Source of the DNA: Aquisphaera giovannonii
GTDB lineage: Bacteria > Planctomycetota > Planctomycetia > Isosphaerales > Isosphaeraceae
NCBI RefSeq assembly: GCF_008087625.1
Contig: NZ_CP042997.1
Coordinates: 4,650,001-4,714,000, forward strand
Length of the DNA stretch: 64,000 nucleotides
Direction of reading: 5' to 3'
A program made the translations under genes and the position numbers. The notes beneath the pieces were generated by a model. That model was given only the letters and a program-made list of their open reading frames with translations, was not told where the DNA came from and made no database searches. The stretch's first letter is position 1. Every line of letters starts with the position of its first letter. Below are positions 12,967-25,034 of this stretch, in pieces.

Positions 12967-13020
12967 GGGGGGGAGTGGGGACGAACATGAGCATTCGTCG
13001 CGGCCGGGTCACGACGCGAA

Positions 13021-13150
13021 ATCCCTTCCCCCGTTACCAAGGGGGGATGCAGGGGGGTGGATGCGATCGCCTCGGCCTGGGCCATGCACCCCCTCTAACT
13101 CCCCCTTCGTAAGGGGGAGAACCGGAGCGGCTTGCCCCTCGCGAGGTTGA
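13021..13150. repeat. repeat family A copy 1 (CCCCCTT hairpin element)
   Basis: Contains CCGTTACCAAGGGGGGATG, then CCCCCTCTAACTCCCCCTT, CGTAAGGGGGAG and a trailing ACCGGA..TGCCCCTCGCGAGG. A copy in the same orientation lies at 15064-15220 and an inverted one at 23131-23265. The element has nested hairpins (CTCCCCCTT/AAGGGGGAG). It sits between the two ABC-2 sets. Confidence 0.8.
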
Positions 13151-15063: not shown

Positions 15064-15220
15064 CCCTCGAACCTCCGCCTGGCCAGGGGAAAATCCATCG
15101 TCCCCCCCTTGCCAAGGGGAGATACAGGGGGGTGAGTTCGATCGCCTCGGCTCGCGGCATTCACCCCCTCTAACTCCCCCTTGGTAAGGGGGAGGACCGG
15201 ATCTGGCTTACCAGAGGGGA
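15064..15220. repeat. repeat family A copy 2
   Basis: Same orientation as the copy at 13021-13150. Shared blocks include GATCGCCTCGG, CACCCCCTCTAACTCCCCC and TAAGGGGGAG followed by GACCGGA. The two copies bracket the second ABC-2 gene pair, so recombination between them would delete or duplicate that pair. Confidence 0.8.
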
Positions 15221-15913: not shown

Positions 15914-15991
15914 CCCGTGGGAGCCGGCTCCGCCCGGCGACCGGGCGGGCCTGGGCCGGCGGGGTCGCCGGGCGGAGCCGGCTCCCACGGG
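15914..15991. repeat. repeat family B palindrome, copy 1
   Basis: Two perfect 29-base inverted arms, 15914-15942 and 15963-15991, with a 20-base spacer. The arm begins CCCGTGGGAGCCGGCTCCG, itself partly palindromic. A second full copy lies inside a gene at 23846-23923 and a single arm at 18681-18707. Confidence 0.85.
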
Positions 15992-18368: not shown

Positions 18369-18388
18369 GCGTGCGGCGGCATGAGTCT

Positions 18389-18434
18389 TTTGTAGGGTGC
18401 GTCAAGCGGAGCGCGGACGCACCGGATCGGCTTG
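18389..18434. repeat. repeat family C copy, long form
   Basis: Starts TTTTGTAGGGTGCGTCAAGC and ends GACGCACCGGATCGGCTT. It forms an inverted pair with 18512-18555. Confidence 0.75.
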
Positions 18435-18511
18435 GCGATTCGGACCGCGCCGGGCCCATCGGGATTCGAAGCCCACGCGACTTCACCCCCTTGCTGGCCC
18501 GACATTCCACG

Positions 18512-18555
18512 GCGATCCGGTGCGTCCGCGCTGCGCTTGACGCACCCTACAAGAG
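18512..18555. repeat. repeat family C copy, inverted
   Basis: Starts GCGATCCGGTGCGTCCGCGC and ends TTGACGCACCCTACAAGAGA, the reverse complement of the 18389-18434 copy with few changes. Confidence 0.75.
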
Positions 18556-18578
18556 ACCTTCTGAGCATCGGCCTCGCC

Positions 18579-18609
18579 TTCTCTGTGCCCTCCGTGCCTC
18601 TGTGGTTAG
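18579..18609. repeat. repeat family D copy
   Basis: CTCTGTGCCCTCCGTGCCTC followed by TGTGGTTAGG. It matches 18796-18829 almost base for base. Confidence 0.7.
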
Positions 18610-18680
18610 GGGAAGCCTCGGGATCGTCGATTCCGGCCTCTGCCCGAGCCATCTCCCGGGAAGCCCGCCTCGGCCCGCCC

Positions 18681-18707
18681 GGTCGCCGGGCGGAGCCGGC
18701 TCCCACG
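18681..18707. repeat. repeat family B single arm
   Basis: The first 27 bases of the right arm seen at 15963-15991 (GGTCGCCGGGCGGAGCCGGC...) without the matching left arm, so this is a truncated or solo copy. Confidence 0.7.
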
Positions 18708-18735
18708 AAAAGGCCTGCCGGCCTCTGCCCGCCCT

Positions 18736-18772
18736 CGGTGCGTCCGCGCTGCGCTCGACGCACCCTGCAAAA
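18736..18772. repeat. repeat family C copy, inverted
   Basis: TCGGTGCGTCCGCGCTGCGC followed by TCGACGCACCCTGCAAAAG; same orientation as 18512-18555, with a few substitutions. Confidence 0.65.
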
Positions 18773-18795
18773 GACCTTCTGCGCCTCGGCCTCGT

Positions 18796-18829
18796 CTTCT
18801 CCGTGCTCTCCGTGCCTCTGTGGTTAGGT
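18796..18829. repeat. repeat family D copy next to the Bax1 start
   Basis: TTCTCCGTGCTCTCCGTGCC followed by TCTGTGGTTAGGTC. It ends about ten bases before the Bax1 start codon at 18840, so part of the gene's leader derives from this repeat. Confidence 0.7.
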
Positions 18830-22454: not shown

Positions 22455-25034
22455 ATGCGAATGACTGCCCTGGCCTGGCTTTACGGCTCCGCGATGTGGC
22501 TCGCCGCGGGGCTCCTGTTCGCGGTCCAGCCGATGGTCGGCAAGATGGTCCTGCCGCTGCTGGGCGGCACGCCGGGCGTCTGGAACGCGTGCCTGGCCTT
22601 CTACCAGGCGGCGCTCCTGGCCGGATACGCCTACACGCACGGGGGCTCGCGGCGGCTGCCGTTCCGCGTCCAGTATCCCCTCCACGGGCTGGCATTGTTA
22701 CTGGCCGCCTGCGTCCTGCCGATCGCCCTGCCCGCGGGCCTGTCGCCGCCGGAGGCCGGCGGCCTCGCCCCGCCGCTCTGGCTGCTCGGCGTCCTGGCCC
22801 TGTCGGCCGGCCTCCCGTTCGTCGTCGTCGCGGCGACGGCCCCCTTGCTCCAGCGATGGTTCTCCATGAGCCGGCACCCTCGCGCCCGCGACCCGTACTT
22901 CCTCTACGCGGCCAGCAACGCCGGCAGCCTGGCCGGGCTGATCGCCTACCCGTGGCTCATCGAGCCGTCGCTCGGCCTGCCGGGGCAGTCGCGGGCGTGG
23001 GCGGCCGGCTTCGGCGTCCTCTCCGCCCTCATCCTGGCCTGCGGCGCGGCCGTCGCGCGGACGAGGGGGGCGCGAGGCGATGAGGGCCGTCCGCACGACC
23101 TGGTCCCGGAAGACCTCATGGAGGCGGGCCAATCCGGCTCTCCCCCTTACGAAGGGGGAGTTGGAGGGGGTGAATGGGGCGAGCCTGGGCGGTCGAAGAC
23201 CATCCCCCTGAAGCCCCCCTTCGTAAGGGGGGAACCGGATTCGGCCTTCCCTCTCGCGGAGGGGATTCCGGAAGCCACACCGCCGGCCTTCCGCGACGTC
23301 CCTTCGGCCTCCGCCTCCTGGCGCGACCTCGCCCGCTGGGCCGCCCTGGCGGCGATCCCCTCGAGCTGGCTGCTCGGGGTGACGACCTACATCACGACCG
23401 ACCTCGCCGCGATCCCGATGCTCTGGACGGTGCCGCTCGCGATCTACCTCATCACGTACATCGTCGCCTTCGGCCGCGGCTCGGGGGCGGCGACGCGGCT
23501 GGCGGCCGCGACCTTGCCGATGGCCGCCGTGCCCCTGGTGATGGTCCTCGCCGCGGGGTTCGTCCACCTGTTCTGGATCCCGCTGCACCTGCTCGCGTTC
23601 TTCCTCGGTGCCCTCGTCTGCCACGGCCGGCTCGCCGCGACGCGCCCGCAGGCGGACCGCGCGACGGCCTTCTACCTGGCGATCGCGGCGGGGGGCGTCG
23701 TCGGGGGGCTGTTCAACTCGCTCGTGGCACCCCTGGCGTTCGATCGCCTGGTCGAATATCCGATGGCGATCGTGCTCGGCTGCCTGGCGTCGCCTGGGGT
23801 CGACGCGGGGCGGGCGGGAAGAGGGGCGAGGTCACGGCCAAAAGCCCCGTGGGAGCCGGCTCCGTCCGGCGACCGGGTGAGCCGCGGCCGTCGCGGTCGC
23901 CGGACGGAGCCGGCTCCCACGGGGGGCCTTCGTCGCTCGCTCATGATCGGCTCCGACGCTCCTGCACTGGACGCCGCCCTGCCCCTCGCCGTCGCGGGCC
24001 TCACCGCCCTGCTGGTGACGGGGCCGCCCGGCCTGGTGGACACGGCGGCGGGGATGCTCGGCGTGACGCTGGCCGCGGGGCTCGGCGTCTACGCCTGCGT
24101 GACGGGCCTCCGCCGGCCGCATCGGTTCGCGATGACCGCGGCCGGCGTGCTGCTCGCGAGCGGCCTGGCCCGCGAGCCCGGCGGCACCGTGCTGCTGCGC
24201 TCCCGCGACTTCTTCGGCACGCTCCGCGTGCTCCGCGACGAGGCGGCAAACGCCCACCGGCTCCTCCAGGGCAGCACCCTCCACGGCCAGCAGTCGCTCG
24301 ACCCGGCGCTCCGCGTCGAGCCGACCGCGTACTTCGCCCGCACGGGCCCGATCGGCGACGCCTTCGCCGCGATCGAGGGCTCGCCGTCCCGCCGGACGGG
24401 GATCATCGGCCTGGGCGCGGGGACGCTCGCCTGCTACGCGAAGGCCGGCGAGTCGTGGACCTTCCACGAGATCGACCCCGCCGTGCCGCGGATCGCGGAC
24501 GACCCGCGCTATTTCACCTACCTGGCCGACGCCCGCGCCCGCGGCGCCTCGATCGACGTCCTCCTGGGCGACGCCCGCCTCCGGCTCCGCGAGGCGGCCG
24601 ACGGCGGCTACCGCGTCCTCGTCCTGGACGCCTTCAGCTCCGACGCCGTCCCCGTCCACCTCCTCACCCGCGAGGCGATCCGGCTCTATCTCTCCAAGCT
24701 GGGCCCCCGCGGCCTCCTCGTCTTCAACATCTCCAACCGCTACCTCGACCTGGATCCCCTGATGGCCCTCCAGGCCGCCGACGCCGGCCTCGCCTGCCGG
24801 ATCCGCTACGACGTGAAGGTCGACGACGCCGAGCGCCGGGCCGGCAAGCAGCCTTCCATCTGGGCCGCGATGGCCCGCTCCGAGTCCGACCTCGGACCGA
24901 TCGCCGCGGATCCTCGCTGGCGGACGCCGACGCCCAGGCCCGGCGCCCGCCCGTGGACGGACGACCGATCCGACCTGGCGTCGTACCTCGTCCTCGGCGG
25001 CCGGAGGCTGCCCGCCGCGCGGTCGGATCGATGA
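22455..25034 (+). CDS. membrane protein fused to spermidine-synthase-like domain, with two repeat-derived inserts
   Basis: 859 residues. The N-terminus (LFAVQPMVGKMVLPLLGGTPGVWN) is the typical opening of the multi-helix proteins fused to a spermidine-synthase-like methyltransferase fold. The C-terminal domain has IIGLGAGTLACYA (about 649-661), HEIDP, LLGDARLRL and LVLDAFSSDAVP, matching the aminopropyltransferase fold. Two stretches look foreign: residues about 226-270 are encoded by a family A repeat and 464-490 by a family B palindrome. Both keep the frame open and fall in loops between helices. The function is unproven; many family members are uncharacterised. Confidence 0.85.
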   Translation: MRMTALAWLYGSAMWLAAGLLFAVQPMVGKMVLPLLGGTPGVWNACLAFYQAALLAGYAYTHGGSRRLPFRVQYPLHGLALLLAACVLPIALPAGLSPPEAGGLAPPLWLLGVLALSAGLPFVVVAATAPLLQRWFSMSRHPRARDPYFLYAASNAGSLAGLIAYPWLIEPSLGLPGQSRAWAAGFGVLSALILACGAAVARTRGARGDEGRPHDLVPEDLMEAGQSGSPPYEGGVGGGEWGEPGRSKTIPLKPPFVRGEPDSAFPLAEGIPEATPPAFRDVPSASASWRDLARWAALAAIPSSWLLGVTTYITTDLAAIPMLWTVPLAIYLITYIVAFGRGSGAATRLAAATLPMAAVPLVMVLAAGFVHLFWIPLHLLAFFLGALVCHGRLAATRPQADRATAFYLAIAAGGVVGGLFNSLVAPLAFDRLVEYPMAIVLGCLASPGVDAGRAGRGARSRPKAPWEPAPSGDRVSRGRRGRRTEPAPTGGLRRSLMIGSDAPALDAALPLAVAGLTALLVTGPPGLVDTAAGMLGVTLAAGLGVYACVTGLRRPHRFAMTAAGVLLASGLAREPGGTVLLRSRDFFGTLRVLRDEAANAHRLLQGSTLHGQQSLDPALRVEPTAYFARTGPIGDAFAAIEGSPSRRTGIIGLGAGTLACYAKAGESWTFHEIDPAVPRIADDPRYFTYLADARARGASIDVLLGDARLRLREAADGGYRVLVLDAFSSDAVPVHLLTREAIRLYLSKLGPRGLLVFNISNRYLDLDPLMALQAADAGLACRIRYDVKVDDAERRAGKQPSIWAAMARSESDLGPIAADPRWRTPTPRPGARPWTDDRSDLASYLVLGGRRLPAARSDR
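23131..23265. repeat. repeat family A copy 3, inside a coding sequence
   Basis: Has TCTCCCCCTTACGAAGGGGG, AGTTGGAGGGGGTGAATGGG, then CCCCCTTCGTAAGGGGGG and AACCGGATTCGGCCTTCC. Its left part is the reverse complement of the copies at 13021 and 15064. It is translated as a Gly/Pro-rich segment of the membrane protein. Confidence 0.85.
23846..23923. repeat. repeat family B palindrome, copy 2, inside a coding sequence
   Basis: Perfect 29-base inverted arms, 23846-23874 and 23895-23923, spacer 20 bases, the same geometry as 15914-15991. One base in each arm differs from copy 1 (CCGTCCGG versus CCGCCCGG), and the change is matched in both arms, which indicates compensatory change or arm conversion. 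Confidence 0.85.

Follow-up and report, generated by a model that had tools for sequence, protein, structure and literature searches.

The gene considered here lies on the forward strand at positions 22455 to 25034 of a 64,000-nucleotide stretch of Aquisphaera giovannonii DNA (contig NZ_CP042997.1, positions 4,650,001 to 4,714,000), hereafter the window, and carries two unrelated palindromic repeats within its reading frame. The open reading frame (ORF) comprises 859 codons free of stops, and its predicted product is a fused MFS/spermidine-synthase-like membrane protein. This protein matched the NCBIfam family NF037959 (MFS_SpdSyn) with 52.1 bits against a cut-off of 40, as a fused MFS/spermidine synthase, and searches of Pfam (E 0.001) and, by sequence, of solved structures (E 0.01) gave no match. 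For comparison we used 81 coding sequences (CDS), namely the window gene and 80 relatives, kept from at least 572 confirmed of at least 592 stretches. An AlphaFold2 model of the protein, obtained with 70 sequences as input (P0001 and the loci of 69 of the 80 relatives), had a mean predicted local distance difference test score (pLDDT) of 85.2 and a predicted template modelling score of 0.86. In this model, residues 1-451 resembled MFS transporters (e.g., 9w1r, Z 21.6, root-mean-square deviation 4.4, 349 residues aligned), and residues 579-838 resembled spermidine synthases (3gjy, Z 22.2, deviation 3.0, 235 aligned), so that the MFS fold precedes the spermidine-synthase fold.

Family A occupies positions 23131 to 23246 (forward strand, 116 bp, nhmmer score 107.9), encoding residues 226-264, and family B positions 23845 to 23923 (forward strand, 79 bp, nhmmer score 68.7), encoding residues 464-490; the latter is an inverted, REPIN-like dimer of a repetitive extragenic palindromic (REP) sequence. 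In a codon-usage test, the flanks on either side of A, and likewise those of B, shared one coding frame. These data bear out the residue positions, the length of 859 codons and the frame given in an earlier note on this DNA, as well as its claim that a single membrane protein has two in-frame inserts in loops. Because the frame is open and the domain downstream is intact, both inserts appear to be translated. We also considered whether frame-saving mutations had arisen in the window copies; these are unnecessary, since many A copies (41 of the 76 with a recognisable left hairpin) and all 32 full-length B copies are open in the frame used by the 859-residue protein.

The model places both inserts in predicted disordered loops. 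Loop 1 (residues 205-288, positions 23067 to 23318, forward strand) is bordered by helices 175-204 and 289-317 and forms the connection between helices 6 and 7, and loop 2 (residues 445-502, positions 23787 to 23960, forward strand) joins the last helix of the MFS part to the next long helix. The modelled position of the first insert thus corresponds to the central MFS linker and that of the second to the segment after helix 12, in a numbering that takes residues 106-137 as a single helix. Apart from the tail (854-859), pLDDT fell below 50 only at residues 213-218, 221-279 and 472-491, which coincide with the inserts, and the block comprising residues 451-500 of loop 2 had values of 44-54. Among the 81 sequences, the median length is 34 residues for loop 1 and 24 for loop 2; in the window protein these loops have 93 residues (39 supplied by A) and 67 residues (27 supplied by B), respectively.

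Both repeats belong to multi-copy families without sequence relationship to each other. The A core (33 bases, up to three mismatches) had 117 matches in the 10.5 Mb genome of A. giovannonii, and the B core (35 bases, same tolerance) had 196; the genome G002, of the same genus, had 28 and 13, respectively. Neither core matched in G006, G016 or G030, three genomes that represent two further genera of the Isosphaeraceae, and the reversed control patterns gave no match in any of the five genomes. As a separate observation, among the matches listed (200 of 313), A and B copies are sparse, relative to the remainder of the A. giovannonii contig (G000:C1), at about 1.7-2.7, 2.8-3.4 and 6.6-8.0 Mb.

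The orthologue of the gene in G002 is an intact ORF of 783 codons that aligned in three blocks with 70, 77 and 87% identity, and the gaps between the blocks fall at the positions of A and B, so both repeats are missing from it. The other genome of the genus, G001, gave no match to the 859-residue protein. A paralogue in the A. giovannonii genome has, as judged by eye, short loops lacking either repeat. The earlier note had proposed an alignment of orthologues and had reasoned that conserved sequence at both positions would make the similarity to the repeats a coincidence; no such conservation was seen. The idea that the two segments are ancestral protein sequence resembling the repeats by chance is ruled out by at least 100 matching copies of each family, against zero for the reversed controls, together with the absence of both segments from the G002 orthologue and the paralogue, and we give it practically no weight.

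A different reading is that the gene is decaying, or that the inserts are skipped by translational bypassing or end up in a split product, which would leave the repeats outside the working protein. One gene does hold two hairpins, and bypassed palindromes are known from yeast mitochondria (PMC6649704, in the part available, as holds for all articles cited here by PMC number). Nonetheless, the 859 codons have neither stop nor frameshift, codon usage is coding-like on both sides, the region past the second insert keeps the 87% identity to the G002 orthologue, and the fold is confident on both sides, all of which makes this reading very improbable.

Taking these results together, we propose with good confidence that two non-autonomous palindromic elements inserted into the gene and were retained because they left the frame open and lie in disordered linkers. 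Several observations at the sequence level indicate what kind of element B is. Exact B half-units in the sampled stretches (n = 132) start with GTGG (125), GTAG (3), GCGG (3) or TTGG (1) and fold through the stem GCCGG/CCGGC. Their commonest close arrangement, found in 20 of the 51 neighbours within 160 bp, is an inverted pair with outward tags spanning 70-89 bp. The genome has six matches to PF01797 (Y1 transposase), three of them above the NF047646 cut-off of 80; one, at L222 (G000:C1, about 5138100-5141350), is a REP-associated tyrosine transposase (RAYT) gene scoring 112.3 bits, with several B copies on either side, the stronger matches to its left and right being oppositely oriented. The GTGG/GTAG tag, the inverted dimers and a RAYT gene flanked by copies identify B, by sequence, as a GTAG-type REP family with REPIN-like dimers; the assignment uses these features, and B was set beside the families of PMC3733652 by description rather than by comparison of consensus sequences. 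B would then be a GTRG-tagged inverted REP dimer moved in trans by the RAYT, whose gene the family retains among its own copies. Family A, to which we assign no mobiliser, is a 116-bp palindrome made of two hairpin halves; by eye its consensus ends have no evident GTAG or CGTC tag, although the ends of the element are not settled. A larger A element with additional flanking hairpins was also considered and rejected, given that a 5-bp stem occurred in 41% and 43% of 83 flanks versus 31% of 1000 random segments, too weak a difference. Apart from its dimers, B also forms tandem arrays of half-units with regular spacings of 93, 74 and 54 bp (G000:C1 8362954-8363267, 5327470-5327652 and 5746678-5746830, respectively).

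To place the window copies among the others of their families, contexts were taken around the matches listed, 100 of the 117 A places and 100 of the 196 B places. A profile search of 0.85 Mb, made up of 126 stretches around these 200 copies and another that surrounds the paralogue, yielded 218 merged units (103 A and 115 B), one of which was omitted because it lay at a stretch edge. The remaining 217 were classified with a coding-frame model based on codon usage, whose training ORFs were filtered on GC content by codon position. Only eight units (2 A, 6 B) were in frame inside a coding frame, versus 895 of 1752 random segments from the same stretches (Fisher p 5e-49; 6/215 and p 2e-51 without the two window copies). 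A rough neutral expectation, calculated as the coding share (0.511) times one third in phase times the open-frame share, is about 9 in-frame units for A and 14-15 for B, versus the 2 and 6 observed, so in-frame copies seem to be depleted too. Given the contrast with random segments, the in-frame copies seem to be tolerated survivors, few in number, and the depletion within genes suggests that selection would purge most insertions into genes, with in-frame ones surviving. If all genes were equally tolerant, the chance that two of the eight in-frame units share one gene (28 pairs) would be 0.35%, a value that depends on our estimate of about 8000 genes.

The search inside coding genes, another check that the earlier note had suggested, was made in the sampled stretches and uncovered further in-frame cases. 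Units were found in frame in a polyketide synthase, between the ketosynthase and the acyltransferase (L123), in an Lhr helicase (L130), in UvrA (a 39-bp half A; L166:336-4079), in a large membrane protein without a Pfam match (L138), in a PMT-like protein (L201), and near the N-terminus of a further protein (L106), where the unit may lie 5' of the true start. In Lhr, residues 224-264 (41 residues) face five residues in a relative from the Protein Data Bank (PDB), and in UvrA, residues 531-594 (64 residues) face six. REPs have also been reported in uvrA of other bacteria (PMC3733652). Two M56 peptidases come in addition to the 8/217: in one (L055), B is in frame, a case from an earlier sample of 26 B copies outside the 217-unit count; in the other (L124), A encodes residues 84-121 and is spanned by the Peptidase_M56 match (16-333), although it remained under the threshold of the codon test. 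Palindromic repeats are thus in frame in unrelated genes, and B occurs in at least two reading frames among different proteins.

Loop 1 proved to be a recurrent site of palindromes. The 81 CDS contain 15 palindromes with an arm score of at least 13, and the centres of nine fall at window residues 211-269, i.e., in loop 1, which makes up on average 5% of the protein (binomial p 7e-9); a single codon shuffle per CDS left two palindromes in all 81. Since the window had been chosen for its repeats, the count was repeated without its gene (8/13, p 4e-8), and then also with a Methylobacter pair counted once (7/12, p 5e-7). A separate shuffle test detected a significant loop 1 palindrome in 8 of the 80 relatives and a loop 2 palindrome in none of them, the window gene being the only one of the 81 CDS with the latter. 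In a first set of relatives (23 of 29 used; L068 and L085-L089 omitted), the corresponding counts were 4/23 for loop 1 and 0/23 for loop 2; three of those four recur in the larger set, where L067, L070 and L081 appear as L263, L264 and L318.

Several loop 1 palindromes are members of multi-copy families of their own. The one in a Singulisphaera metagenome-assembled genome (MAG; G016) had 183 matches there, and the one in a Fimbriiglobus MAG (G051) had 29, each with none in four other genomes. In two Methylobacter MAGs the loop 1 palindrome had 14 and 5 matches; because it is nearly identical in both, the two insertions probably represent one event. L297 and L300 lie outside these copy-number tests with own patterns. 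It may be added that the Methylobacter records, L298 and L299, have a long loop 1 palindrome that encodes a CRGEFIRPGRMNSPL-type peptide and whose family is present in both genomes. In the G051 family, 7 of 22 units (L243-L262 and the orthologue L081) were in frame in genes, or 6/21 without L081, which had been added by hand. This is a larger share than the 6/215 of A and B (p 2e-4), and among the Pfam domains encoded by these genes are squalene-hopene cyclase, MobA-like, U32 peptidase and GT87. Random-segment controls were in frame in 325 of 676 cases for G016 and 369 of 691 for G051.

The cluster itself could reflect a target-site preference of the elements rather than tolerance of the protein. 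We regard this as unlikely: the families have different sequences, the palindrome centres spread across residues 211-269 (with an uncertain alignment within the loop), and A and B units are otherwise rarely found in genes. We favour tolerance over target choice on two grounds: families without mutual relationship arrive at one and the same linker, and elsewhere A and B seldom lie in genes. Loop 1, the central MFS linker, would accordingly be a tolerant site at which unrelated palindromes have been taken up in several bacterial lineages. The wider proposal, that this linker is a landing site across phyla where unrelated mobile palindromes independently and repeatedly become disordered peptide, we hold somewhat more probable than its contrary.

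Some observations weigh against the explanation by insertion and tolerance. About 20 residues in loop 1 and 16 in loop 2 exceed the median lengths without being accounted for by the repeat cores. No A match (E 1e-3) was found when the six Y1 loci were searched together with 1.5 kb on either side. Loop 1 of G002 carries its own, different palindrome, which is single-copy, and for this reason the sequence as it stood before the insertion of A is not seen there. The loop 1 palindromes of G030 and L317 are likewise single-copy in their genomes, as is that of G002, so not all of them are proven to be mobile. The classifier placed none of 25 G016 units in frame despite the known in-frame G016 orthologue; it undercounts copies in long loops, and its shares are therefore lower bounds. 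Finally, the predicted RNA hairpins are very stable (-82.0 kcal/mol for B and -74.4 kcal/mol for A) and could hinder translation.

The stability of these hairpins also bears on the possibility that the inserts are domesticated, that is, kept by selection because the peptide, or a hairpin in the mRNA or DNA, alters the transporter or its expression. Repeated uptake by the same loop in distant lineages could point to an advantage, and PMC3733652 speculates along such lines for repair genes. In contrast, the sequences at loop 1 are unrelated and their peptides differ, most of the orthologues compared lack a palindrome there (the significant ones numbering 8/80 in loop 1 and 0/80 in loop 2), and B is read in two or more frames among different proteins. 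Domestication seems to us quite improbable. Under the explanation by insertion and tolerance, the protein would carry disordered inserts of 39 and 27 residues with little effect on folding; we infer that the elements moved in and that the inserts are near neutral.

The Rickettsia palindromic elements, reportedly described by Ogata in 2000 and 2002, were the likeness drawn in the earlier note. It holds in that palindromic repeats lie in frame in unrelated proteins. It does not extend to membership: the Rickettsia elements belong to another phylum and those of R. conorii are CGTC-tagged (PMC3733652), whereas B has GTGG/GTAG tags and a RAYT, none of the CGTC tag was noticed by eye in A, and here only 8/217 units are in frame; the two are set apart by description. 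Being more gene-tolerant than A or B, the G051 family (6/21 without the orthologue) comes nearer to the behaviour of the Rickettsia elements.

According to the available part of PMC3733652, GTAG and CGTC repeats occur in many bacteria, planctomycetes included; several bacteria have in-frame REPs inside genes, with double insertions in uvrA genes; a single site, in recB of two Xanthomonas, is shared; and flexible linkers were put forward as the reason for tolerance. A degenerate GTGG tag is also described there for most GTAG-20 elements of Opitutus terrae. The GTAG super-family REPs resemble the present elements in being short palindromes that form inverted dimers, are associated with a RAYT, and are mostly intergenic, with some in frame and sometimes two per gene. 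They differ in that two unrelated families share one gene here, and in that palindromes recur in loop 1 across Planctomycetota and Gammaproteobacteria. REPINs (PMC3116915) are comparable to B, an inverted REP doublet with one long predicted hairpin and a RAYT beside some copies, but those doublets are extragenic and the window copy is coding; the available part of that article contained no mention of coding copies. The coding palindromes of nematomorph mitochondria (PMC6649704) are also long translated inverted repeats; their arms encode conserved residues, whereas here dispersed copies are absent from orthologues. For four Isosphaeraceae, the available part of PMC5352709 mentions only CRISPR repeats.

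The suggestion in the earlier note that such planctomycete repeats are undescribed therefore needs narrowing: REPs in planctomycetes and in-frame REPs are published (PMC3733652), but in a search that mostly left out subscription papers we found no report of the 859-codon gene or of a structural site shared across phyla by unrelated repeats. In-frame REPs and Rickettsia elements being already in print, the double capture is a clear case of a known kind, a two-family example that joins the short list of mobile palindromes turned into protein, and the recurrent loop 1 linker is the less expected feature. The occurrence of different repeats in the same loop in different phyla allows target choice and tolerance to be set against each other, and the site lets one ask how frequently new segments of protein originate from selfish DNA.

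Four other copies lie in the window, none of them in frame within a gene by the codon-usage test. The further copies that the earlier note had placed at 13021, 15064 and 15914 are real and correspond to an intergenic A at 13017 to 13126 (reverse strand, nhmmer score 103.1, both flanks noncoding), an A at 15101 to 15208 (reverse strand, 96.9) between coding stretches whose flanks are in different frames, and a B at 15914 to 15990 (forward strand, 54.5) with a single coding flank. To these we add a half B that the earlier note lacked, at 18664 to 18709 (reverse strand, 27.7), also with a single coding flank. Lastly, a third repeated family was noticed at 18385 to 18828 of the window, in which an inverted repeat of the GTAGGGTGCGT type is accompanied by a direct repeat that ends in CCTCTGTGGTTAGG.

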